The notes beneath the pieces are model-generated. The model ran no database searches. It was not told the DNA's origin and saw nothing but the letters and a program-made list of their open reading frames with translations. A stretch of DNA of 64,000 bases, taken from positions 186,001 through 250,000 of the forward strand of contig DATLUO010000193.1 in assembly GCA_035533075.1 (NCBI GenBank), written 5' to 3'. The translations under genes and the position numbers were made by a program. Below, piece by piece: positions 2,812-56,471 of the stretch. How positions within the stretch are numbered: position 1 is the stretch's first letter; each line of letters opens with the position of its first letter. The stretch is from Pirellulales bacterium. Its GTDB lineage: Bacteria; Planctomycetota; Planctomycetia; Pirellulales; JAICIG01.

Positions 2812-4494
2812 TCACAGTCCGGGAATCTCGATCTTTTCTTCCTGGGCCGCCTTGCGGAGCTTGCTCAAAGCTCGCGCCTCGATCTGACGCACGCGCTCTT
2901 TGGTGACGCCCATTTCCGCTCCCACTTCCTTGAGCGTCAACGGTTCTTGTCCGCGCACCAGCCCGAAACGGCTGATGATGATCTTCTGCTCGCGGTCGTC
3001 AAGCCGCTCCAGGATTTTGCCGATCTGCTGCTCGCGCTGCTCCTGGGCGTGCTCTTGCTCGTACTGGTCGGTACGCACGTCTTCCGTGGCCGAAAACATC
3101 TCTTCGTTGCTGGTGCGGAACCGGTCGCGCCGCCGCAGCTCGTCGGGAATGGTCCGGGCAAAATTCTTCATAATGGCCCAGCTTGCATAAGTGCTGAACT
3201 TGTTGCCGCGGCCGAAATCGAATTTTTCCACTGCCCGCATCAGCGACATATTGCCGTCGCTGACCAACTCGAAGAAGTTGTCGACCGGCCCCACGTGCCG
3301 TTTGGCGATCGAAACCACCAACCGCAAATTGGAGCGAATGAGCAGGTTCTTCACCGCCACGGCTTCTTCATAAAGCTGCTCGATCTGGTCCATCAGGCCG
3401 CTCTTGGGCCGCGTCGGGTCGAGCTCTTCACGCAGTTTGCTGGCCTTATGCTTCAGAAAGTTGAACTTGCGGAACAAGTAGACTTCTTGCTCGCGGGTCA
3501 ACAGGCTGACTTCGTACAGGCTGGCCAAATAGGGGGGCAAGCCGGTGGGCAGCCGGCCCTTTTTGGCCGGGCCGGGGGCTTCGGGCATCTCGCCCAGGCA
3601 GACCGCGTCGGCGTTGGCCTTGCGAAACAGGTCGTTGTCGATGTAATCCAGCGGCAGCTCCATGATCCGCGCCGCCCGCATCTCGTTCAGGATGCGATAG
3701 ATGCTCGTCTTCGTGCGGCCATATTCCTTGGCCAGGGCATCAACGGAAACGCCGCGGCGATACTGCTGGTCGATCCGCCGCTTGGTCTCGTCCGAGAGCG
3801 GGCCGCTGTTTTCCGGGAACACCGCCAATTCGGGATGCTCGGCATCGAACGCCTTGAGCGTGTAGCGGATCGTTTCGACGCTGCGACCCATCCGCTCCGC
3901 CAGGCGACGAGTGACTTCGGCGGGCTGACCGCCGGCACGGGCCAGACGTCGGGCACGCTCGACGATGTTCATCCGCTCATCTTCGCTAAGCTGGCTGAAT
4001 CGCGCACCGCGGCTGACCCGCTGCTCGTTCTTCTTCACGAAGCGGTCGACCGAGCTCTGCAAAAAGCCGAGACGCTTGCGGCCGTCGAACATGAATCGCC
4101 GGCTCACCAGGCCCTGCTGCCGCCAACGCGAGATCGTCTTGGTCGAGACTTTGAACTGCTGGCTCAACTCTTCAACGGTCAGTACCTTCTCTCCCACCGC
4201 GTCGGCGGGAAGATTGGCGGCGTCCGACACGTCCTCGACGAAGAGCCGCAGGTCGTGCTTGGCGTCGTCACCCGACATCTTCGCCGCAACCGGCGAGTCG
4301 GGGCGGAAGTCGGTGATGCGGAAGCAGAGATACTCGTAGGTGTAGGTCCGCTTGGGATCGAGTTCCGCCAGCAATCGCTCGGCGCGATTGGCCTGCTCGA
4401 CCTTCTTCTCGCGAGGCGCATAGCGCACCTGTTGGTCGCAAAGCTCGCGAATCGTGGAATTGATGTAATCTCGGTGCATGTTTTGAATCTCCAT
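2812..4494 (-). CDS. sigma-70 family RNA polymerase sigma factor with N-terminal helix-turn-helix extension
   Basis: A 560-residue sigma factor. Region 2 (about 380-455) contains RSNLRLVVSIAKRHV and KFSTYASWAI, the core-binding and -10 recognition parts. Region 4 (about 500-555) ends in EVGAEMGVTKERVRQIEARA, the -35 helix-turn-helix. No canonical region 3 is evident. The N-terminal half is unlike RpoD: it has a MerR-like helix-turn-helix at about 105-130 (LTVEELSQQFKVSTKTISRW) and a second resolvase-like one around 230-260 (GVSVDALAKEYGRTKTSIYR). Such extended factors occur in planctomycetes. The start may be the ATG at 4494 or the one at 4479 (MHRDYINST). Confidence 0.88.
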   Translation of the reverse strand: MEIQNMHRDYINSTIRELCDQQVRYAPREKKVEQANRAERLLAELDPKRTYTYEYLCFRITDFRPDSPVAAKMSGDDAKHDLRLFVEDVSDAANLPADAVGEKVLTVEELSQQFKVSTKTISRWRQQGLVSRRFMFDGRKRLGFLQSSVDRFVKKNEQRVSRGARFSQLSEDERMNIVERARRLARAGGQPAEVTRRLAERMGRSVETIRYTLKAFDAEHPELAVFPENSGPLSDETKRRIDQQYRRGVSVDALAKEYGRTKTSIYRILNEMRAARIMELPLDYIDNDLFRKANADAVCLGEMPEAPGPAKKGRLPTGLPPYLASLYEVSLLTREQEVYLFRKFNFLKHKASKLREELDPTRPKSGLMDQIEQLYEEAVAVKNLLIRSNLRLVVSIAKRHVGPVDNFFELVSDGNMSLMRAVEKFDFGRGNKFSTYASWAIMKNFARTIPDELRRRDRFRTSNEEMFSATEDVRTDQYEQEHAQEQREQQIGKILERLDDREQKIIISRFGLVRGQEPLTLKEVGAEMGVTKERVRQIEARALSKLRKAAQEEKIEIPGL

Positions 4495-22737: not shown

Positions 22738-23670
22738 TTACCAACGACGCATATTCCAGGTCTGGCCGAGATAGAAGGGCTTGATCTTGCCATCGTCGCT
22801 TGCAGGGATCTTGACCAGCCTCATCTTGACGCCCGGCGCCAAGACAAGGTCCCAATGCTCACCATTATCGCGATGGTGTGAGTCAGCGACGTCGATCGCC
22901 GTACTTATGCCTCCGCCAGGCGCGCCGTTGTCAGCGAGGGCGGAATCACTCGATGCAGGCGGGGTCGGCGCAACGCTCGGAGGCGCAGGCGCCGGCTCGT
23001 TTACCGCAGTGCTGGCGGATCGTTTGGGGGTCGAATCGGCAACGGTAGTCTTCCGGTTATTTGTCGCGGCGGTTTTGAGTTGGCGATTTTTCAGGTCCGA
23101 TGGACCAGAGGGTCGCAACGCGATCCACATCACCACCGCAATAGCGATCGCGCCGCCCACGCCGGCCGTAGCAATCAGCCACGCCGGCTTCTTCTTCCGT
23201 CGATGTGTGGAGAACCGACCGACGGGCGACGAGGCGCCGACATCGATCAGTGGGGCGGGTGTCGCCGCCTGCGATGGTTGTGGCTGCGGCAATGCCCTTG
23301 CGCGGGGCAAAGAGCGGGGCGAAACGCCGTCAGCCGCCGGAACGCCACCGAGGGCGTTCCCTACAGATGGCGGAGACGTTCGCCCAATCGCCATTTTCTC
23401 GCGCAACTGGCGGTCGTACTCGGCTTTTTTCTGCGGGTTGAGCAGCGTGACACGCGCGGCGGCGCATTCGTTGAGCAGCTTCTGCGATTCGGCCGAATGC
23501 TTGCCGGTCTGGTAGCTGCGCAGGTGCGACATCTGCCGGTCGGCCGCCGCTTCAATCACGTCGGGGTCGCTCTCGAACAGGTTGATCGCCAGCAGCCGAT
23601 AGTGGTTCGGCGGTTGCTCCTTGGGCGGAATGCCCAGCCATTTGTAATAGGGATCGAATGTTTCGCTCAT
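22738..23670 (-). pseudogene. formylglycine-enzyme-like (SUMF1) protein truncated at the domain start
   Basis: The start MSETFDPYYKWLGIPPKEQP opens a planctomycete J-like N-terminal domain (about 1-95, DRQMSHLRSYQTGKHSAESQ). A Pro-rich linker, a membrane helix (about 165-190, WLIATAGVGGAIAIAVVMWI) and an Ala/Pro linker follow. The frame then enters a SUMF1-type domain (LAPGVKMRLVKIPAS; KPFYLGQT) and breaks after eight residues of the usual PFYLGQTEVT motif. Everything catalytic is lost. Two bases after its TAA an ATG opens the LamG-type remnant. A small palindrome (23339-23360) is translated in the first linker. Confidence 0.65.
23339..23360. repeat. short palindrome read in frame
   Basis: GGAACGCCACCGAGGGCGTTCC: 8-base perfect arms (GGAACGCC / GGCGTTCC) and a 6-base loop, preceded on the minus strand by CTGTAG. 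It encodes part of VGNALGGVPA in the linker of the SUMF1-type protein. Repeats of this type are common between genes in related genomes. Confidence 0.6.
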
Positions 23671-23736: not shown

Positions 23737-24165
23737 TCATCGCGAGCCCAGGTGCCGGCGCACATCATCCGCTGTCTTGGCTGTCTTTATGACCTTAGCC
23801 AAGCGGTGCAGCTCGGCAACGTCGCTGATCCTGCGCACTCGGGTCATCAGTTTGCGGCCTGGCTGGCCGAACTTCGCTTCCAGAGCCAAGGCAATTCCCT
23901 CGCGCAGCCCTTCTTCGCGTCCCTCCGCGCGCCCCTCTTCACGCCCTTGCTCCCGTCCTTGCTCCCGTCCTTGCTCCCGTCCTTGCTTGAGTCCCTCTTC
24001 CAATCCTCTTCGCTCCAGGCTCGACAGATACGGCATCCTTTTCTCCCTCTCGTATTGATAGATTTCTTCGTGAAACTCTTCTTCCAAATCGTCGGGCAAT
24101 TCCAAGATCCAATCCTTGGGCGAAATGCCCAGCCATTTGCAATAGGGACCAAATGATTCGGCCAT
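23737..24165 (-). pseudogene. chimera: J-like protein start fused to Rpn-type nuclease tail
   Basis: The first 18 codons ([18 protein letters not shown]) are the beginning of the same J-like family as the next gene. From about residue 22 the sequence is instead the C-terminus of Rpn/PD-(D/E)XK transposase-like proteins: [34 protein letters not shown], a tandem run of QGRE units (encoded by 12-base CCTTGCTCCCGT repeats at 23945-23986), and [20 protein letters not shown]. The nuclease catalytic domain is absent. The fusion is in frame and could be translated, but it looks like the scar of a deletion. Confidence 0.65.
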
Positions 24166-44732: not shown

Positions 44733-47699
44733 CTACGGCTCGTCAAACAAGGTTCGCTCGGCCTTCGGAGCCAGCGCCGCTTCGCGGAGTTTGATTTCGG
44801 TGCGCAGGGTGGGACGCTCGGCGAGCAGCGCGCTGGCGAGACGCCAGTCGTCGGTGTCGCGAGGCAGGACTTCGAATAGCGCCTGGGCCAGCCGCCAAAA
44901 GCCGGCGTGCTCGGCGAGGTCGTGAGTGTGGAGATATTGGACGAGGGCGGCGCGGTCGCCACGCTGCCAGTAGAGCATGGCGCGATGGAGTTGGTCGATG
45001 AGGGGCGATTCTTCGTCTTCGCCCAGGTGCGGGCGGTCGAGACGGTCGGCGAGGAGGGCCAAGCGGCAGGTGGGGCCGTCGACCATGAACAGGCCGCGGC
45101 CGCGGGCCACCTCGAGCGCCTCTTCGGCGTCGCCGCCGACTTGCACGACCAATCGCATGTCGTCGAACGCCTGCTCGGTCACGCCGTAGAGGTTGGCCCA
45201 GACGAAATAGAGCCGCGACAGGCGGTCGCCCGTGAATTCGCCCGCGATCCCCTTGAGGGCCGCCTCGCGGACAAGCTGCAACAGTTCGGGCACGGTCACG
45301 GGCGTCCCGTCGGCGCGTTCGACGCGCTGGTGCTTGCCGAACTCGCCCACGGCCGGGCCATAGCAGGCCACAATCAGGTCGGCGCCCCGGAAGCCGTAGT
45401 CCCAGAACCGCTTGACGCTCTCCTTTACCACCCGCTCGATCTGGCGCCGCACGTCCTGAAACGACGCCGGCGGCGCCGCCACCCGCGGCCGGCAGACCAC
45501 CGTGATCGACGATTCCAACGCCGAGCTGTCCAAACCCCGAGCGCGGTTCTTCAATTCCATATCGAGCGCGAGTGTCGCGGTGATGTTCAGGCCAGCTTCA
45601 AATAATGCGTTGACGAGCGCCGTCCATGCTTTCGTCGTTTGGTGCGCGAAGATCACCGTGACCACGCCATTGTCTTTGCAGACCCGCCGTGCTTGGGTGA
45701 AGCACCCAGCCAATTTTCGCGTAAAGTGCTCGTCCGCTTTTTCGGCATCGCCCCCGTGCCGGTGGTTCATTGCCGTCGCTTCTTCGTCCTTTGGCGTTTG
45801 GGGCGTTGCAAAAGCTTCGGGAACAATGTCGTGCAGGGCGCGCTTGAGCCAGACATAGAACATGTCCGACAAATCCGCGTAGGCATACATGTTGAAGTAG
45901 GGCGGATCGGTGACCACATTGTCGATGCTCGCACTTGGAAGCGCCAATCCGGCGCTATCTCCCAAGGTCACGCGACATCCAGCGTCTGAGAATCCGACCG
46001 CCAATTGCTCGTGGAATATGACGCGCCGGATCCAATCAAGCTGCGATAAGCCGCCGCCGCTAGCGTCATTAAACGGATTCACTTCAGCATAATCCCAAAG
46101 CATGGAGAGCTTTGCCATATCAAAGGGCTGCTCAAACTTCTCTCCCGAGTAGTGCCAGCGAGTGAATGAAGTCATGCGGACAATCATTCTGTCGACCCAC
46201 ATCGCCAGGTAGCACGCGACCGCTTGCCAATAAGAGTCAACACCGTCACCGAGGGATTGAGAGAAAATCTCGTGAAGAGAGTCGTTCAGCGTCTGGATCG
46301 CGACAACTTGTCGCGGGTTGAACAAATCGCCCCATCGCATAAAGCCGTACAAATGTACGCGAATTCCGGTTGAGTTTGAGACGTCATCTTCGTCGACACC
46401 TCGCTGCGTGATCTCAGGCAAGATCGGCTCCGCGGGTCGTTCAACGCTCGCTGCGAGCTCGGCCGCTTGTTTGGCCGCAGCGAAATCAACGGCTTCCGGG
46501 GCGCGGTAGTCTTTGCCGTTGGGCGCATCGGTAATCACGGCTACCAGCCGCTCGCCGAGCTTCTTGTCTTTGCCGGCCTGGCGCAAATCGGCCACGGGCG
46601 TCGGCTGTTCGCAGATCGGACAGCGGCAGTTGCCCCGAGTCAGCATTGTGCCTTGCGTGCGTGTAATCGCCTCCCCTTTGGCGATGCCGAACTTCACTTC
46701 TTTGCCGTTGACCTTAATGGTCAGGGCGACCTTCTTTGCATCCTTGTTGCAAATCAGCAGGCTGCTCAAGAGCGGAATCTCCGCGCGGCACGAAGTATTC
46801 GAGCAGGGCGCGGTGCGCGCCCAGAGATAGCCGACCACCGGCAGGTTGTCGGAGCCGACCGGGTAAAGGTGGCCGATCTTTTCTTTGGCGCGTCGCAGAA
46901 TCTCCTGCGCGTAATGCTCGACGTCGTAAGCCAGCACGTTGGGCACTTCGACCTCGGCCAGCGAACCGGCCGGCTGGCGCATGCCCGGCTTGCCGTACTT
47001 TTGCGGAAACTCGCAGGTGGCCCGCAGAATCAGATAGGCCACCGGGTTATAGTCGTTGGCGATCGGCTGGGCGCCGATGCGGCCCGCTTCGAGCGGTATC
47101 GCGCCCCCGCCGGCGAACGGATCGAGCACCGTCGGCACTGCGCCGCCGTTGGCGACGCGCACCAGCTCACGGGCGATCCAGAGCACTTTGCGGCCGACCT
47201 CGTTGGGCATTTCACGGCTGCCGACCTTGATCGTGGGGCCGCTCGTTTCCCATTTCACCAGCGAACGGTCGTCGAGCAGGCGCTCGGGCTTCGGCTCGCT
47301 GGTGCTTTGCCCGGCGTCGAACGCCAGCCATTCGGGCGACCACTTGGCGACGAACATCATCAGCCGGTTGCGCAAGGTATCGGGCTGGCCGGCGTAGGGG
47401 CGATAAGGGTCGGGGTCGAGGTGCGTCTGCCGCCCGCGGCGATACGATTTGAGCACGTCCGCTACGTCGCTCTTCAAGTGTCGCTCGACCGCCGCGCGGA
47501 AGTCGGCCGGGCAATCGGGATGATCGGGGTCGAACACCAGCGAGCCGAACACGACCGCCCGCGACGCGGCCAGCGGCCGCCGCGCGAACCACAGGTGCAA
47601 GGTGGAGATATGCCCGTGGCGCAGCGACTTGTCGCGCACGCTTTCGGCCGAGATTTCACGGATGGGCAGGGCGACTTCAATCAGGCGGGGGGCAGTCAT
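44733..47699 (-). CDS. DUF1156 zinc-ribbon adenine-specific DNA methylase
   Basis: 988 residues from the ATG at 47699. DUF1156 is N-terminal (RLIEVALPIREISAESVRDK; STLHLWFARRPLAASRAVVF). The methylase motifs are split: VLDPFAGGGAIPLEAGR at 191-207 and catalytic NVVTDPPYFNMYAYADLSD at 594-612. Between them lie cysteine pairs (C299, C304; CRCPIC at 358-363), the zinc ribbon described for COG1743. The start overlaps the helicase stop by 23 bases. DUF1156, DUF499 and large helicases co-occur in predicted defence loci. It would modify host adenines as self-marking; the sequence target is unknown. Confidence 0.9.
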   Translation of the reverse strand: MTAPRLIEVALPIREISAESVRDKSLRHGHISTLHLWFARRPLAASRAVVFGSLVFDPDHPDCPADFRAAVERHLKSDVADVLKSYRRGRQTHLDPDPYRPYAGQPDTLRNRLMMFVAKWSPEWLAFDAGQSTSEPKPERLLDDRSLVKWETSGPTIKVGSREMPNEVGRKVLWIARELVRVANGGAVPTVLDPFAGGGAIPLEAGRIGAQPIANDYNPVAYLILRATCEFPQKYGKPGMRQPAGSLAEVEVPNVLAYDVEHYAQEILRRAKEKIGHLYPVGSDNLPVVGYLWARTAPCSNTSCRAEIPLLSSLLICNKDAKKVALTIKVNGKEVKFGIAKGEAITRTQGTMLTRGNCRCPICEQPTPVADLRQAGKDKKLGERLVAVITDAPNGKDYRAPEAVDFAAAKQAAELAASVERPAEPILPEITQRGVDEDDVSNSTGIRVHLYGFMRWGDLFNPRQVVAIQTLNDSLHEIFSQSLGDGVDSYWQAVACYLAMWVDRMIVRMTSFTRWHYSGEKFEQPFDMAKLSMLWDYAEVNPFNDASGGGLSQLDWIRRVIFHEQLAVGFSDAGCRVTLGDSAGLALPSASIDNVVTDPPYFNMYAYADLSDMFYVWLKRALHDIVPEAFATPQTPKDEEATAMNHRHGGDAEKADEHFTRKLAGCFTQARRVCKDNGVVTVIFAHQTTKAWTALVNALFEAGLNITATLALDMELKNRARGLDSSALESSITVVCRPRVAAPPASFQDVRRQIERVVKESVKRFWDYGFRGADLIVACYGPAVGEFGKHQRVERADGTPVTVPELLQLVREAALKGIAGEFTGDRLSRLYFVWANLYGVTEQAFDDMRLVVQVGGDAEEALEVARGRGLFMVDGPTCRLALLADRLDRPHLGEDEESPLIDQLHRAMLYWQRGDRAALVQYLHTHDLAEHAGFWRLAQALFEVLPRDTDDWRLASALLAERPTLRTEIKLREAALAPKAERTLFDEP

Positions 47700-50600
47700 G
47701 CTCGTCTCCGTGCTGCCGCCAGTCCGCCTCGGTGACGAAGTATTGGACCTGCCGGTAAAGCATAGCCGGGTGAAGCCGCGACATGGGATCGCGGATGATC
47801 CGCAGCCGCGGCCGTAACGTAGCAGGCACCGCGCACCCGCGCGCGGGTGGCGTGCCGTCGCCTTGAGCCGATTCTCGTTCACTGCCGCAGAACGTCACAA
47901 TGTAGAGATAGGCCCGGTCGCCGAGCTGCTCGAGCTTGTCGCGTTCGGGGGCGGTGAGCACGACGCCGCCCGAAGCGGCCCGGCCCTTGACCTCGATGAA
48001 CCGCCGCTCGCCGTCGGGGCCTTCGCTGCGAATGTCGTAATGCTCGCCGTCGGCAGAGATGTCGATTGGATTCCAGCCGCGTGAGCGCTCGTAACGCATC
48101 ACCACCTGCATCGCGATCCGCTCGATCTCGTCGTCGCGGCGCATCGGCAAACCGCCGCCGGCCGCCGGTTCTTCGGGCGGCGCCCCTTCGCCCAATGCGT
48201 CATCGAGCACGGCCACCGGCGCGGGCAGCACCAGGGCCGAGGTGATGACTTCCGGCAGGTTGGCGGTCAGCCGCAGCATCAGCTCCAGCTCTTCCAAGCG
48301 GCGCGTCTTGCGGGCCTTGAGGTCGTTGAGCCGGCGTTCGAGCTTTTCGCGTTCGTCGGCGTCGTCGTTGCCGAAGAGCGAGGCCCGCTGTAATTCTTCG
48401 AGCTTGAGCGACTGCTCGGTGATCAGCTCAGTGAAGGTGGTTTCCAGATAATGTCTGCGCAGCTCGCATTCGGCACGGCGATGCTCGCTGACGCGCCGCA
48501 TCTGGTGTTCGGTGAGATTGGTGTACGACCAGAGCTGCACTTCGTCGGTGGGAAAATCGGGAACGGCGAGCGTGGGGGCGAGGGAGGATGCGTCGGAGTT
48601 GGGTTGAGTGACGTCTTGCGCGGAGGAGGGCCCCTCGGTGGTAGGCGACGGCACACTGAGTGTGCTTGCTACTTTGGGGGCTGCGACTATTTCAGTGAAG
48701 TTCAACACCGTGGCGGGCGAGACCGCACGCAGGCCGTGATGGTCGGCCAGCACGACGCTGAATTGCTGATGTGCCAGCCGTTTGCGCGCTTCCTGCCGTC
48801 CGTCTTCAACCGCGGAGCGCACCAGCCAGAGCCGCTGCGGCACGGCGATGTTCGGATCGCAAAGCGTGGCCCCTTTGGCAAAACTCTCGCGCGCCTCGTG
48901 GATGGCCCACTCGGTCACGGCGTCGAACAGCGGATGTCCGGAACCGAGCAGCCGCGTGTATTCGGGCACGCGCTGCGGGCTGGCGACCGAGACGAGCTGC
49001 TTGTCGAACACAAAGGGATTCTCGTACTTATCTGCGATGTGCAGTCGGAGGCGGCGAGCAACCTCCATCACTTTCGACGGCAGCGGGCCGACGTGATAGA
49101 CGGGATAATGGTCGTCGGGCCGGACCGTGCCGCCGGCCGCGCGCCAGGCGTTGATGAAAAAGTTCCGCATAAACAGCGGCTGCAAGCGGCGCTCATCGGA
49201 AGCGTCGCGCAACTGCCGGGCGTCGGCCAAATCCAACCTGGAGGCGAGCGACTGTTTCTTCTGCAAGGCCACGAGCTCGTCGGCCTTTTGCTCCAGCTTG
49301 GGATCGGCGATCATGCGGCCGGCTTCCTTGGCGACTTCCTTCGCCTGGTCGGCATCCTCCGCGTCGATGGAGCGCTCGATCATGGTGACGAGCGGCACGT
49401 CTTCCAGCAGGTCGTCGACCACGTCGTAGACGCGGTCGTCGCCGAGCTGCTCGCGCATCACGTCGAGCTTTTTCAATATCTTTTCGAGGACAGCGCCCTC
49501 GCGCGTATTCGAGGCGACGAGATTGAACACCCAGACGTCGTCGGCCTGGCCGTAGCGGTGGATGCGGCCCATCCGCTGTTCCAGCCGGTTAGGGTTCCAG
49601 GGAATGTCCCAATTGATCAGGTAGTGGCAGAATTGCAGGTTGATGCCTTCGCCGGCCGCGTCGGTGGCCAGCATGATCTTTTTCGAGGTGCGGAACTCTC
49701 GCTGGGCCTCCTTGCGCGCGTCGGCGTCCATCTTGCCGTGGATTGTGGCCACCGTATAGCCGCGATGCGTGAGCCGCTGACACAGGTTATCCATCGTGTC
49801 TTTGTGCTCGGTGAAGATCACCAACTTTTCGTCTTCGCGCCGGATGACGTCGGACGAATCGAGCACCTTGCGCAGCTCGGTGAACTTTGCCTCGTTGAAC
49901 TGCGCCTTGTTCAACCCTTCGGCGACGCGCAGCAGATCCGAGACCTCGTTCCGCTCGTCTTCGACCGCTTCAGGGTCGTCGCTCAGTACCTGGCGAAAAA
50001 TCTTCTTGTCGACCGCTTCGCGTTCAGCTTCATCGAGCTCTTCATAGTCGGCATAGGCGCGGGGGACGTCTTCGGTGTCGCCCTTCAAAAGACGTTTGAC
50101 CTCGGCGGGACTGCGGCGCGGGTCGCGCAACAGCCGCAATACCTCGTCGAGAGCGGCCAGGCGAGTGCGGAGCGTGCAGGTGATGGCGTAGATCGACGAG
50201 GCCAGGCGGCGCTGCATGACCATCACCGTCAATTCGACGTTGCGGTTCTTCTTGGCGCGGGCCTCCTTGCGCCGCGAGCGAACGTATTTCGTCACGGCGT
50301 TGTACAGATCGAGCTCTTCGGGCGTCAGCTCATAGCCGAGCGTCTTCGTGTACCGCGGCTTGAACAGCGGCTGCTCCGACCAATCGAGCATTTCCTCTTT
50401 CAAGCGGCGAAGGAAGAAGCGGTTGCGGGCCTTGGCGATGGCCGCCTCGCCCTCGAAGGCCTCGCCCTTTTCGTTGAACAGCCGTTTGCCGATCCGCTCG
50501 TTGACCAACTCGTCGGCCTGGAACAGGTCTTCGTCGAGCAGCATCAGCAGTCGGCGGAAGGTGTCTTTGCGGCCGCGATGCGGCGTGGCCGTGAGAAACA

Positions 50601-51384
50601 GCAAATGATCGGTCCGCGGGGCGAGCTGCTCGATCGCCTGGTAGCGGTCGCTTCGCTCGACCTTCGCACCGTATTCATAAGCCGAAAGCTTGTGGGCCTC
50701 ATCGACGATGATCATGTCCCATTGCGCTTCGCGCGCCGCGTTGAGGCAGCCTTCATGACGGGCAATGAAATCAATCGACGTGATGAACAATCCTTCGTCG
50801 GAGCGCGCGAACTGGGCCGGCTCGGCCTCGAAGCTGTGGCGGTTAATGCGTCGGAAGTTGAGACCGAATTTTTCGGCCATTTCGTCGTACCACTGCCGCG
50901 TCAAACCGCCGGGCACGACGATCAGCACCTTATTGACCGTGCCGCGGAAGAGCAGCTCTTTGAGCAACAGCCCCGCCATGATCGTCTTGCCGGCCCCCGT
51001 GTCGTCCGCGAGCAAAAAGCGGATTCGCGGCAGCGGCAGCAGGTAGCGATAAACGGCTTCGACCTGGTGCGGCAGCACATCGACGGCCGACGAGTTGACG
51101 GCGAAAAGCGGATCGAACTGATAGGCGGTCTGGATGCGGTTGGCTTCGACGCCCAGCAGAAATGTTTTTGCGTCGCCGTCGTAGGTGAACGACGCACCGC
51201 GAATGCGCGTCAGGCGAGAGATCTCTTCGGACGAAAGCGGCCGGCGGATCAGGCGGCGGGAGGTGACGCCGATACCCTCGACGAGCATCTTGGGGCCGAA
51301 GCTGGTGATATTGCGCAATTCAACATGCTCGTCGGGTTCCAATCCGGCGACGACATCACCCGGCGCGAACGATACGGTAGACAT
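47677..51384 (-). CDS. SNF2-type helicase with C-terminal DUF3883 domain
   Basis: 1235 residues from the ATG at 51384. Helicase motifs: I LADDTGAGKTIMAGLL (125-140), II IIVDEAHKL (226-234), III FLTATPHRG, V MLATDAAGEGINLQFCHYL and VI EQRMGRIHRYGQ. The C-terminus (about 1115-1180) is DUF3883 with GEHYDIRSEG and RFIEVKGR, an E-x-K pattern like degenerate or active PD-(D/E)XK nucleases. It probably translocates on DNA in the predicted DUF1156/DUF499 system. Two short palindromic repeats are translated in frame: in a linker near residue 910 (48644-48675) and near the C-terminus (47819-47864). Confidence 0.88.
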   Translation of the reverse strand: MSTVSFAPGDVVAGLEPDEHVELRNITSFGPKMLVEGIGVTSRRLIRRPLSSEEISRLTRIRGASFTYDGDAKTFLLGVEANRIQTAYQFDPLFAVNSSAVDVLPHQVEAVYRYLLPLPRIRFLLADDTGAGKTIMAGLLLKELLFRGTVNKVLIVVPGGLTRQWYDEMAEKFGLNFRRINRHSFEAEPAQFARSDEGLFITSIDFIARHEGCLNAAREAQWDMIIVDEAHKLSAYEYGAKVERSDRYQAIEQLAPRTDHLLFLTATPHRGRKDTFRRLLMLLDEDLFQADELVNERIGKRLFNEKGEAFEGEAAIAKARNRFFLRRLKEEMLDWSEQPLFKPRYTKTLGYELTPEELDLYNAVTKYVRSRRKEARAKKNRNVELTVMVMQRRLASSIYAITCTLRTRLAALDEVLRLLRDPRRSPAEVKRLLKGDTEDVPRAYADYEELDEAEREAVDKKIFRQVLSDDPEAVEDERNEVSDLLRVAEGLNKAQFNEAKFTELRKVLDSSDVIRREDEKLVIFTEHKDTMDNLCQRLTHRGYTVATIHGKMDADARKEAQREFRTSKKIMLATDAAGEGINLQFCHYLINWDIPWNPNRLEQRMGRIHRYGQADDVWVFNLVASNTREGAVLEKILKKLDVMREQLGDDRVYDVVDDLLEDVPLVTMIERSIDAEDADQAKEVAKEAGRMIADPKLEQKADELVALQKKQSLASRLDLADARQLRDASDERRLQPLFMRNFFINAWRAAGGTVRPDDHYPVYHVGPLPSKVMEVARRLRLHIADKYENPFVFDKQLVSVASPQRVPEYTRLLGSGHPLFDAVTEWAIHEARESFAKGATLCDPNIAVPQRLWLVRSAVEDGRQEARKRLAHQQFSVVLADHHGLRAVSPATVLNFTEIVAAPKVASTLSVPSPTTEGPSSAQDVTQPNSDASSLAPTLAVPDFPTDEVQLWSYTNLTEHQMRRVSEHRRAECELRRHYLETTFTELITEQSLKLEELQRASLFGNDDADEREKLERRLNDLKARKTRRLEELELMLRLTANLPEVITSALVLPAPVAVLDDALGEGAPPEEPAAGGGLPMRRDDEIERIAMQVVMRYERSRGWNPIDISADGEHYDIRSEGPDGERRFIEVKGRAASGGVVLTAPERDKLEQLGDRAYLYIVTFCGSERESAQGDGTPPARGCAVPATLRPRLRIIRDPMSRLHPAMLYRQVQYFVTEADWRQHGDEHDCPPPD
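47819..47864. repeat. repeat C, in-frame copy near the helicase C-terminus
   Basis: On the plus strand it runs GTAGCAGGCACCGCGCACCC to GGCGTGCCGTCGCCTT. It shares its ends (GTAGCAGGCAC; GTGCCGTCGCC) with the copies at 52503-52532 and 52621-52719, while the middle differs. It is translated as GDGTPPARGCAVPAT between AYLYIVTFCGSE and LRIIRDPMSRL, where related helicases have only a short turn. Confidence 0.65.
48644..48675. repeat. repeat C, in-frame copy in a helicase linker
   Basis: GGCGACGGCACACTGAGTGT then GCTTGCTACTTT, 32 bases, similar to the 33-base units at 52621-52719. It is translated on the minus strand as KVASTLSVPSPT inside a low-complexity linker of the helicase. Confidence 0.65.
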
Positions 51385-51665
51385 GGCCCTCACTGCCGCT
51401 GACAGCCCTGGTGTACTGGCCCTCGGCTGCTGGCCGGCTGGAACGATCAACCGGCGACGTTCCCGAACGTAGCCACGGTGCCGCCATTAGGGTATCGGGT
51501 GGGCAGGCGAATGTACAGCCGCCGCGGCAGGCGCACGGCCGGCACAGGGAAGAATTGCGGTTCGTGGTCCGTTGCCTGTGGCTGCGTCGGGATCCGGCCC
51601 GTCGGGAACTTTCCGGCGGTTGGCGGCGTCTAAAGGTTGGCGGCACGGCACAGCGGCTGGGCGTG

Positions 51666-51962
51666 ATGGCCCGCGCGGCGCGCATCTTCCTCGTGTTTGC
51701 CGCGCAGCGGCCCGAAGACCGCGCCATGCCCGTGCAGTTAAGAGACAACCTCGGCAACCGCCTGGTGATGCGCGTCGAAAGTCCCGGCACGTCGATGATC
51801 GCTTTGGGCGAAGAAGGCGCCGAGCGGCTCCTCGGCCGCGGCCACCTCGCCGCGCGGCTGCAAGGCGAAGATCGAATCATTTATGCCCAGGTGCCGATCC
51901 TGTCGCCCGATCAAATGGCGCTCACTGTGGCCGCGATCCGGCAGTCGACGCGCCGCACGTGA
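51666..51962 (+). pseudogene. C-terminal fragment of an FtsK/HerA-like DNA translocase
   Basis: 98 codons from an ATG: ARAARIFLVFAAQRPEDRAM, PVQLRDNLGNRLVMRVES, then TSMIALGEEGAERLLGRGHL. This is the last part of the FtsK-type RecA fold (the LVxATQRP motif and the GxxGAERLLGRGxL block). Walker A and B are missing. Homology may begin slightly before the ATG; further upstream is a 29-base motif repeated near 54.4 kb. It is the plus-strand neighbour of the helicase and probably the stub of a larger translocase gene. Confidence 0.65.
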
Positions 51963-53872: not shown

Positions 53873-54370
53873 TCAGGCCTTCCTCGACACCCGACGTCGC
53901 TTGCCGTCGGCGGCGCTATACTTCTCGGCCAGCGCGGCCACCTCGGCGGCGATCTCGGCGCGGAGCTCGGCCGGCTCCAATACTTCGGCCGACGAGCCGA
54001 AGCTGAGGATGAACGAACGGGCTTCCACCGTGCTGGAAAGCGTCCACTCCGCGATCGCGCCGCCGTCGCGCTGGCGGCTCACACGCTGGCTGGCGTGCAT
54101 CCGCTTTTCCTGGATGTACCGCGCGGCCGAGGGGGCAAAGCGCACCCGCACCCGCACCGCCTGCTGGCCGTGATAAACGCCCAGCGAGCCGGCCAGGTGC
54201 CGCTCGAGGTCGAAGGCGGCGGGACGCTGAAAAGGAAACTTCGTCCGCTCGACCGTTTCGATGCGGTCGACTTTCCGGTGCCGCACCTCGTCGTGCTGCA
54301 AAATCAGCCACTGCCGCAAGAGCGGCGAGTGGTCGGCCGGCGTTCGACCCGCTTGTGGACCTTGAGTCAT
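53873..54370 (-). pseudogene. WYL-domain regulator, C-terminal part only
   Basis: 165 codons. It starts inside a WYL domain (QWLILQHDEVRHRKVDRIET), then shows the family's WCX extension: FDLERHLAGSLGVYHGQQAV, VRVRVRFAPSAARYIQEKRM and ILSFGSSAEVLEPAELRAEI. Intact YafY-type regulators have about 150 further residues, including the DNA-binding helix-turn-helix, at the N-terminus; these are missing. WYL regulators often control defence loci, so this may once have regulated the island. Confidence 0.7.
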
Positions 54371-54866
54371 ATCAAGCCCATTCTAGCGTCGTTCCGCTGA
54401 ACCCTCTACCGAATGCCGCTTGGTCGCTTGGTCTGCGGCGGATCCGACTTTCCGGCGGTTCGTGGGGTCTAACGGTCAGTGGGTGGTGGCTGGCGACCCT
54501 GCCGGAATTTTTCCGCGGTGCGTGGATTCTTTGGCGTTCGCCAAGCGTATTGCTGGTAGCCGGGGAGAAAAGAGAGAGTGGTTAGCAGTTAGCGGTTGGT
54601 GGTTGGTGGTTGGCGGCTGGCAGAGTGTCAGCCGTGCCTAAGAATTGAGCAGTGGCGCCACGCGGCCGCCGGTGCCGATCGGCTTGCGCAAATTTGCGCC
54701 AGCCGATGAAACACGGCGTTTTTGCCTAATTGTTCAACCTGACAGAGGTTTTTTGGCGGCTGCTCAAATGATGTGCATAGTGGTCATCCGACTGCCTGTT
54801 CTTTGAGCAATTCTTTTGTCCGTGCGGCGGAACAGTGTCGCCGGCGTTCGTCGAGTTGCAGCGAGA

Positions 54867-54981
54867 AGTCGAAAGAATTCGGTCCCAAGCCAACAGCGCG
54901 GTAGAACACAGGGAGCCACGCAGGCGGGGACGCCTGCAACGGATCCAACCCAAGCCAAACGCGAGATAGAACACAGGAATG
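54867..54981. repeat. dispersed repeat A, copy 2
   Basis: AGTCGAAAGAATTCGGTCCC to ACACAGGAATG, about 115 bases, collinear with copy 1 (2577-2688) over its whole length with scattered differences. Confidence 0.85.
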
Positions 54982-55020
54982 TTTGAGTGACGCCGGCTGT
55001 TCGGCCGAACCCCCCGCGCA

Positions 55021-55046
55021 CGGTGTGTATAAATTTACACACACCG
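55021..55046. promoter_or_regulatory. 26-base palindrome, possible operator
   Basis: CGGTGTGTATAAATTT followed by ACACACACCG: 8-base outer arms are perfect and the A/T centre is nearly symmetric. Its symmetry suits a dimeric regulator, but no gene start is close, so it may be another repeat. Confidence 0.35.
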
Positions 55047-55082
55047 GCGAAACACGAGGTTTTTTGCCTGTCATGCGGTGTG

Positions 55083-55163
55083 AGTCGAAAAAAATTCGGT
55101 CCCAAGCCAACGGCGCGGTAGAACACCGGGAGCCACGCAGGCGGACGAATGCAACCGATCCGA
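55083..55163. repeat. dispersed repeat A, copy 3 (shorter)
   Basis: AGTCGAAAAAAATTCGGTCC to GCAACCGATC, matching the first about 80 bases of copies 1 and 2, in the same orientation as copy 2 and about 100 bases after it. Confidence 0.8.
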
Positions 55164-55520
55164 CAATACGACGCGCCCAACAACCGCTTCCGGCAGCGGG
55201 CCGCCACTGCCAGACCCGCTTGCGGAGCAAGCGGGCTACGTCGCCCGCTCGCTCCGCGAGCGGATCGGCGGTCGCGAAGCGGCGGCCCGCTACGACTGAG
55301 GATCCGCAAAGTGCCCGACGGTAGGCGGTAGACGGGGATTGAAGAGCGGCGAACGCCGCCAGAATGCCCAATCCAAAATCCAAAATCGGCAATCCAAAAT
55401 TGACCACCCCCCCCAGATTTACCGTTGCGGCGCCAAAATGGGCCGCGGCCGACCCTCGGCGCAAGATCCAACGGGCCAACGGCTTGCAGCCAGGGCAAAC
55501 CGAACGCCTGTTTTGTTTTT

Positions 55521-55553
55521 GACAACGGTAATTATTCTATGACAAGGGTAATT
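55521..55553 (+). promoter_or_regulatory. direct repeats upstream of ilvE
   Basis: GACAACGGTAATT (55521-55533) and GACAAGGGTAATT (55541-55553) are spaced by 20 bases, about two helix turns, ending some 45 bases before the ilvE start. A TTGACA (55519-55524) overlaps the first copy. This is a plausible binding site for a regulator or part of the promoter. Confidence 0.45.
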
Positions 55554-55598
55554 CGGTTACAATGAACGGCCACACAAATCGCCCAAACGGAGATGCGA

Positions 55599-56471
55599 AT
55601 GACGACTGCCGAACGGCCGCTCAAGGTCTACATCAGCGGAAAGCTCTACGACAAGGCCGACGCCAAAATCAGCGTCTACGATCACGGCCTGCTCTACGGC
55701 GACGGCGTGTTCGAGGGCATCCGCAGCTACGGCGGCAAAGTTTTCCGCCTGGAAGAACACCTCAAGCGGCTGTGGGACTCGGCCAAGGCCATCTGGCTCA
55801 CCATTCCCATCTCGCGCGACGACCTGGCGAAAGCGGTCTACGACACGCTCCGGGCCAACAACATCGCCGACGGCTACATCCGGCTGGTGGTCACGCGCGG
55901 GGCGGGCACGCTCGGCCTCGATCCCAACCGCACCAGCGACCCGCAGGTGATCATCATCACCGACCATATCTCGCTCTACCCCCGCGAGCTGTACGAGAAG
56001 GGCCTGGAGATCATCACGGTCAGCGTCGTCCGCAACCACCCGGCGGCCCTCAGCCCGCGGATCAAGTCGCTCAATTACTTGAACAACATCCTGGCCAAGA
56101 TCGAGGGCCTGCAGGCCGGCTGCATCGAGGCCCTGATGCTCAACCCCAAAGGCGAGGTGGCCGAGTGTACCGGCGACAACGTGTTTTTGGCGCGCGACGG
56201 CGTGCTGCTCACGCCGCCGATCGAGGCCGGCATTTTGGAGGGCGTCACGCGGCAGGCCGTGATCGAGCTGGCCCGCGGGCAAAAGCTCGACGTGCGAGAG
56301 ATCCCGCTCACCAAGCACGACGTTTACATCGCCGACGAAATGTTCTTGACCGGCACGGCCGCCGAGGTCATTCCGGTGGTGAAAGTCGACAGCCGCGTCA
56401 TCGGCGGCGGCAAGCCGGGACCGATCACCCGCGACCTGATGGAGCGGTTCCACAAGCTGGCGCGAAGTTAG
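55599..56471 (+). CDS. ilvE: branched-chain amino acid aminotransferase
   Basis: 290 residues. The ATG at 55599 has GGAG six bases upstream and is preferred over the ATG at 55593. It is a class IV PLP aminotransferase: YDHGLLYGDGVFEGIRSYGG, the PLP lysine in SPRIKSLNYLNNILAK, NVFLARDG and FLTGTAAEVIPV are typical of the archaeal/planctomycete-type IlvE. It transfers amino groups between glutamate and the branched-chain 2-oxo acids in the cytoplasm. It stands alone, followed 80 bases later by a kinase gene on the same strand. Confidence 0.93.
   Translation: MTTAERPLKVYISGKLYDKADAKISVYDHGLLYGDGVFEGIRSYGGKVFRLEEHLKRLWDSAKAIWLTIPISRDDLAKAVYDTLRANNIADGYIRLVVTRGAGTLGLDPNRTSDPQVIIITDHISLYPRELYEKGLEIITVSVVRNHPAALSPRIKSLNYLNNILAKIEGLQAGCIEALMLNPKGEVAECTGDNVFLARDGVLLTPPIEAGILEGVTRQAVIELARGQKLDVREIPLTKHDVYIADEMFLTGTAAEVIPVVKVDSRVIGGGKPGPITRDLMERFHKLARS

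Follow-up and report, generated by a model that had tools for sequence, protein, structure and literature searches.

Several described systems are close to the repeat considered here. RybB and MicA are small RNAs of enterobacteria whose synthesis depends on SigmaE (RpoE). Integron attC sites are oriented, adjoin variable genes and keep their structure more than their sequence. ECF promoters are described as having an AAC-type -35 and a CGT-type -10 box, and most ECFs as autoregulated (PMC8103513).

The locus described below, from a Pirellulales bacterium, is an oriented, repeated non-coding unit with sigma-type boxes that match the promoter of a sigma gene, a covarying hairpin and the same order of parts in a second genus. 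Our preferred reading, to which we give a probability of about one half, is that the repeat noted originally, Repeat A, forms the unit-hairpin-unit part within a lineage-specific, multi-copy non-coding transcription unit that would be driven by an ECF sigma factor and that often lies at the edges of defence islands, with anti-phage genes on one side of it and ordinary genes on the other. A limited search of titles and abstract beginnings of open-licence papers returned no description of such an element.

Repeat A in the window

The window is the whole stretch of DNA analyzed, 64,000 nucleotides, and it belongs to a genome (G000) of 8.54 Mb in 296 contigs. The earlier note had reported an element of about 112 bases in three collinear copies on one strand, the last two in the same orientation and about 100 bases apart. 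The coordinates agree with this description, and the copies are 88-93% identical in pairs (89.5, 92.7 and 88.1% over 124, 82 and 84 columns). Their local scores of 94, 68.5 and 61.5 exceed the highest values among 200 shuffles (19.5, 18.5 and 18) three- to fivefold, and the ungapped repeat families D1 and D3 in the window also recover the copies. The copies and the gene fragment beside the first one are as follows.

2283-2666, - strand: FHA-domain gene fragment, covering profile positions 30-67 of 67 only
2577-2686, + strand: Repeat A copy 1, unit-spacer-unit, solitary, abutting the FHA gene fragment
54867-54981, + strand: Repeat A copy 2, with a unit at 54882-54916, a hairpin spacer and a unit at 54940-54979
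55083-55164, + strand: Repeat A copy 3, truncated, with a single unit at 55099-55133 and stopping before the second unit

The upstream half of the FHA fragment has been replaced by the sequence of copy 1. Repeat A is built as unit, small hairpin, unit, where the unit is about 40 bases long with the core CCAAGCCA-N9-TAGAAC. By our own reading, about 18 of the 25 spacers listed fold with an inner stem and about seven do not; the stems change yet still pair, for example, GCAGGC/GCCTGC and GCGGGC/GCCCGC. Repeat A does not fold better than its shuffles (z -0.9 and +1.1). Within the window, the + strand has four occurrences of CCAAGCCA, all of them in Repeat A. The idea that the units are antisense seeds was set aside: the complement of CCAAGCCA occurs 0 times in the window, and the units are not clearly unpaired (0.48 vs 0.37 overall). 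A 53-base direct repeat elsewhere in the window (23618-23670 and 24113-24165, 87% identical) is unrelated to Repeat A.

The composite in the window

The interval of about 100 bases between copies 2 and 3 is another repeat, a palindrome module. The 112-base sequence is a real repeat, but not an element complete in itself: it is a sub-module of a longer directional composite, and is itself made of two smaller units around a hairpin. The composite in the window spans approximately 54440 to 55555; in it HP occurs twice, Repeat A once in full and once truncated, and blocks E and E2 are both present. Its parts other than Repeat A and its neighbours are listed in order.

44733-47699, - strand: HmaB-like gene, promoter-side neighbour (defence profile match)
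47677-51393, - strand: HmaA/DrmD/BrxH-like gene, promoter-side neighbour (defence profile match)
51605-51633, + strand: intact sigma boxes GGAACTTTCCGGCGGTTGGCGGCGTCTAA that have a 14-mer in common with the composite's degenerate promoter
53873-54370, - strand: WCX/WYL regulator fragment, promoter-side neighbour (profile match)
54444-54472, + strand: degenerate sigma boxes at the composite 5' end, CCGAC for GGAAC and GGTCTAA for CGTCTAA
54524-54551, + strand: second promoter type, GGATT-N17-CGTATT, 166 bases 5' of the AAATTT of HP
54618-54655, + strand: module N (GCCTAAGAATTGAGCAG), by module mapping
54680-54726, + strand: module HP copy 1, a 26-base palindrome with constant AAATTT centre, then GAAACACG-N2-GTTTTTGCC
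54736-54866, + strand: module M2 (TGCTCAAA ... TTTGAGCA), by module mapping
55013-55068, + strand: module HP copy 2, by module mapping and covariance model
55163-55202, + strand: end of module D, then palindromic module P (GCTTGCGGAGCAAGCGGGCTACG...), by module mapping
55409-55468, + strand: block E (CCCCCCAGATTTACCGTTGCGG...), by module mapping and E block matching
55498-55555, + strand: block E2 (GTTTTTGACAACGGTAATT ... GACAAGGGTAATTCG), lacking the TCTTTGACAAYTT end found in other copies
55593-56471, + strand: class IV aminotransferase, E-side neighbour (profile match)

The 700-900 bases downstream of the boxes at 51605 hold no unit and no palindrome. This intact pair lies inside a weak ORF (51411-51962, + strand), which resembles the final part of an FtsK-type protein. 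At 55217-55270 and elsewhere there are GCTTGCGGAGCAAGCGGGCTACGTAGCCCGC palindromes together with simple repeats of AGTGGTT and of CAAAATCC; the CAAAATCC repeats also occur in other genomes of the order.

The composite across the genome

Three copies is the correct number for the window, but not for the genome. A two-copy Repeat A query gave at least 40 scored matches in G000, partial pieces included (55 candidates), and the unit core CCAAGCCA-N-TAGAAC is found 59 times there (reversed pattern, 0), with a 9-base gap in 57 of the 59. When 52 stretches of G000 were written as strings of modules, a single order and strand appeared wherever Repeat A or block E occurs: an ECF-type promoter, palindrome HP, Repeat A, E-E2 and often a TCTTTGACAAYTT end. 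In full, the modules are G, N, HP, M2, A, D and P, frequently in tandem, followed by a unit, E, E2 and mostly TCTTTGACAAYTT. The alignments used were of 18 copies of HP-M2-A (A1), of 33 of the 50 unit references (A4) and of the E block, for which five opposite-strand sequences were dropped from 27 references and L038 was added.

Among the 20 E blocks matched in G000, a unit lies within 500 bases upstream in 15 and downstream in none, and the nearest unit is 110-126 bases upstream in 11. TTGACAA is located at +102 to +104 of E in 18 of the 20, and a TCTTTG / TCTTTGACAAYTT end at +253 to +282 in 16; we take the TCTTTGACAAYTT end to resemble boxA of rRNA leaders. The end motif TCTTTGACAATTTGGTAGA also occurs at 4349 (+) of L035 (contig C230), far from any E2. 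The conservation of E-E2 is at the level of sequence, and E-E2 was dropped as a structured RNA because it displays no covariation.

Only one of 33 composite spans (L023) contains a predicted gene, and the genes that flank the composites point both ways relative to them; all of these genes were predicted with a home-made codon score rather than a standard gene finder. These two observations speak against both a protein product and a leader sequence that serves a single gene. No clear terminator was identified in the composites. In a second composite type (L168 and L169, on C60 and C98), a unit lies about 150 bases downstream of the sigma boxes, and GGATCTTTGGAAATYTGG and then GAGTTGCGCATCTTCG repeats follow it.

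Promoter boxes and the ECF sigma gene

Two types of composite promoter, GGAACTTT-N12/13-GCGTCTAA and GGAWT-N17-CGTATT, precede HP on its own strand. The spacers between the boxes differ while the boxes themselves stay conserved. The GGAACTTT-N-CGTCTAA boxes agree with those in the promoter of the RpoE/SigW-like ECF sigma gene that this genome carries. The strict form of this pattern has 15 matches in G000, compared with 0 for the reversed control and about 0.09 expected from base composition. Twelve of the 15 are in composites, 10 in those of the HP/A type and two in the other unit-bearing type (C60 and C98); one is at C226 before another gene, one is the site at 51605 in the window and the last is directly before the start of the ECF sigma gene (C293). 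The C293 protein is RpoE/SigW-like, with scores that fall short of the curated cut-offs for the two models, and its gene is followed by an anti-sigma-like gene.

Orthologues of the sigma gene were found in 29 of 30 genomes, and one of the 29 loci had no upstream DNA. GGAAC-N16/17-CGTC is present within 150 bases upstream of 21 of the remaining 28 and missing from seven, as compared with two of 1198 control windows and 0 of 28 for the reversed pattern. In 388,016 bases of G000, an HP or unit lies downstream on the same strand at nine of 12 GGAAC-N16/17-CGTCTAA sites and at 12 of 13 GGAWT-N16/17-CGTATT sites, and at none of six GGAAC sites with other endings. These loci were selected for carrying repeats, and so the genome-wide strict count is the unbiased test.

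Judged by sequence, the composite boxes follow the ECF promoter pattern, with 16-17 bases between GGAAC and CGTC, which is also found before the presumed cognate sigma gene. The copy in the window is degenerate in its GGAAC-type boxes, and of its two promoter types the second alone comes close to the consensus.

The HP palindrome

The repeat loci of G000 contain 38 HP palindromes on 26 contigs, and the 33 distinct ones have a fixed spacing and align without gaps. The AAATTT centre is invariant, and seven of the 10 stem pairs change on both sides. Paired cells amount to 91.8% of the stem vs 74.5% in shuffles, double-change cells to 72 vs 28.8 and covariation to 0.514 vs 0.203, and the covariation is destroyed when the partner is slid by one to three columns. 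Two measures are weaker. Double-changed pairs number seven vs 5.6 in shuffles (reached by 18 of 500), and further pair types, 13 vs 14.1 (reached by 438 of 500), are not above chance.

The centre is self-complementary, and so the element could act as RNA, as single-stranded DNA or as a DNA cruciform. Since the palindrome is symmetric, a DNA role could explain the covariation equally well.

Neighbouring genes

The main rival to our reading takes the composite as primarily a DNA element that would serve mobile defence islands as their end, as an attachment site or as a recombination anchor. The E-E2 block contains one inverted and two direct CAACGGTAATT motifs, which would then be recombinase or transposase binding sites facing the ordinary gene; recombination would act on Repeat A and the palindromes, and the promoter would be incidental. 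Support for this reading comes from the genes within 8 kb of the composites, predicted with the same codon score: 77 proteins at 20 composites on the promoter side (C174 had none) and 78 at 15 composites on the other. Unrelated defence systems (Hma, BREX, DISARM, Druantia or restriction-modification) match at E <= 1e-30 on the promoter side of 10 of the 20 composites. This count is from singly scanned proteins, which are part of the 77, and leaves out a kinase-like match at C64. The promoter-side matches are listed by composite.

the window: HmaA/HmaB
C29: HmaA-or-BrxH helicase and an HmaB-like protein
C135: BrxA/BrxC
C70: DrmA/DrmB
C75: type IIG and AbiLi
C194, start: type I-like
C194, 98.8 kb: type IIG
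C47: DruA
C56 and C256: type II methyltransferases

When each side was scanned as a whole set at 1e-10, the promoter side matched 384 families and the opposite side 107; of 25 families listed for the opposite side, 21 are models of PD-T4-6, a protein kinase. At E <= 1e-95, PADLOC models match at least eight of the 77 promoter-side proteins, at seven composites, and one of the 78 on the other side, which matches SNF2-helicase models. The contrast between sides has a Fisher p of 0.018 by protein, but by composite it is only 7/20 vs 1/15 (p 0.10), and the one-sided association with defence genes is therefore suggestive, not firm. The genes scanned on the other side match Pfam families such as DUF1501, amidohydrolase, PRC-barrel, phospholipase-D-like, HlyD and aminotransferase, and two have no match.

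The composites at C47 and C194 also favour a DNA element; they have a common gene end (84% identical over 322 residues) and the composite, and the genes beyond differ. In addition, many copies are located at contig ends. Against this reading, no transposase or integrase is among the flanking proteins scanned, and there is no second or inverted E2 in the flanks of 20 stretches and the window, so that an inverted E2 partner was abandoned as a marker of the other island end. The search for an empty site at copy 1 also yielded none: beside dapF in G001, G002, G004, G010 and G011 there is no FHA fragment and no sigma gene, and gene order around dapF is not conserved across five stretches from five genomes. 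On balance, we think it unlikely that the composite works primarily as DNA. An RNA role could, however, coexist with a role of the DNA as island end or recombination anchor.

Distribution and the second genus

G001 represents a second genus and is the only other genome examined from the family. The HP covariance model has 58 matches in G000 and 25 in G001, some being opposite-strand readings of the palindrome, and one weak match in each of two of the other 95 genomes of the order. The unit sequence model has at least 66 matches in G000 and at least 63 in G001, which are floors because 64 candidates were scored per genome, and 18 weak matches (E 0.004-0.09) in 15 other genomes. In the genome collection the exact unit pattern has two matches, both to unrelated organisms, and viral contigs have none. 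This distribution of HP and unit indicates a family-level repeat within the genomes searched, and the unit is, as far as tested, confined to one bacterial family.

In 118,735 bases of G001, there are 12 GGAAC-N16/17-CGTC sites. Five of them end in TAA or GAA; these are the sigma gene and four other loci, at which a unit follows on the strand of the site after 126-247 bases, and the remaining seven have no downstream unit. The G001 loci were picked for units or palindromes, which biases presence and, to a lesser degree, spacing and strand. At one locus, L218, the boxes are followed by a unit (+139), by E (about +233) and by E2, which is the same order as in G000; at L208, E and E2 are present, and promoter boxes were not found. 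The strict box pattern has 0 matches in G001, whose sites either carry GAA as their ending or differ in the extension of the -35 box. A tandem array of five units at a constant 123-base spacing occurs in G001 at L145 (2240-2780, - strand).

The second genus bears on another alternative, namely that the composite is a mosaic of ordinary BIME-like intergenic repeats, copied by local recombination with no role of their own and with the boxes simply carried along. The variable module content, the tandem copies and the mixture of simple heptamer repeats with short palindromes would fit such a mosaic, as would the exceptions to the order, which are diverged solo palindromes or units (L044, L045 and L051) and an inverted module D in L013. 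Boxes kept despite differing spacers, stem covariation and two genera with the same order and similar spacings speak against it, and we find it doubtful.

A non-autonomous, MITE-like transposon is very improbable: the sequence is dispersed and multi-copy, one copy adjoins the truncated FHA gene and some palindromes of G001 (L141, also L113, L140 and L144) lie between transposon-like inverted flanks CAATCGCCGTAAGTC ... GACTTAAGGCGATTG, but these flanks are unseen in G000, where we saw by eye no terminal inverted repeats, as the earlier note had said, and the scanned flanks lack a transposase. The same lack, with the two unrelated and 0 viral matches of the exact unit pattern, led us to reject an insertion-sequence fragment and agrees with the earlier claim that the copies belong to no recognised insertion sequence; a CRISPR-like array was rejected because the spacers between units fall into types common to several copies rather than being unique, and a known RNA family because Rfam 15 gave one tRNA only in the window and, at E up to 1 in six loci, three sub-threshold microRNA matches, none at gathering score.

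A proposed role

We return to the reading of the composite as an ECF-driven non-coding transcription unit. In this scheme, stress would set the RpoE/SigW-like sigma factor free from its anti-sigma, and the freed sigma would read the GGAAC-N16/17-CGTCTAA boxes at the composite 5' end. The resulting RNA would be non-coding, would carry the covarying hairpin, at least one CCAAGCCA unit and the E-E2 block and would act as a stress-induced regulator. The proposal in the earlier note to check for a small RNA goes in the direction of this reading. The genome has multiplied the unit in tandem and spread it over intergenic positions of some 26 contigs, where anti-phage defence genes frequently lie on the promoter side; recombination between copies may shape the neighbouring islands.

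If transcription does occur, the strict-consensus promoters of a conserved ECF sigma in G000 serve, for the most part, a repeated non-coding unit and not protein genes; an ECF regulon of this kind would be unusual. The one-sided defence association, if it holds, would provide a sequence handle on the placement and shuffling of defence islands in this lineage. A speculative extension, which we consider unlikely, is that a previously undescribed class of multi-copy, stress-sigma-controlled non-coding element marks these islands and helps to assemble them; since 12 of the 15 strict ECF sites in G000 belong to this element, its induced transcription would then link envelope stress to the expression or recombination of the neighbouring anti-phage systems.

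Comparison with known systems

Like integron attC sites, the composite keeps structure over sequence, is oriented and lies beside variable genes. Unlike them, it has a 10-bp stem with a fixed AAATTT centre; we found no integrase among the flanking proteins scanned and saw no alternation of cassette and site. REP/BIME sequences (PMC3733652) are short palindromes in many intergenic copies with stems more variable than the loop, and in these respects HP is similar. However, the 33 aligned palindromes (alignment A3) have no GTAG or CGTC tetranucleotide at their edge, and HP sits in a long, ordered composite with sigma boxes. The BOX and RUP repeats of Streptococcus pneumoniae (PMC3049150) are likewise modular or small intergenic repeats; the composite differs in its ECF-type promoter and in a fixed 3' block common to two genera. 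With its dozens of copies, tandem modules, predicted transcript and no known target, the composite is unlike RybB and MicA, but it would share with them a GGAAC-type ECF promoter that drives a non-coding RNA.
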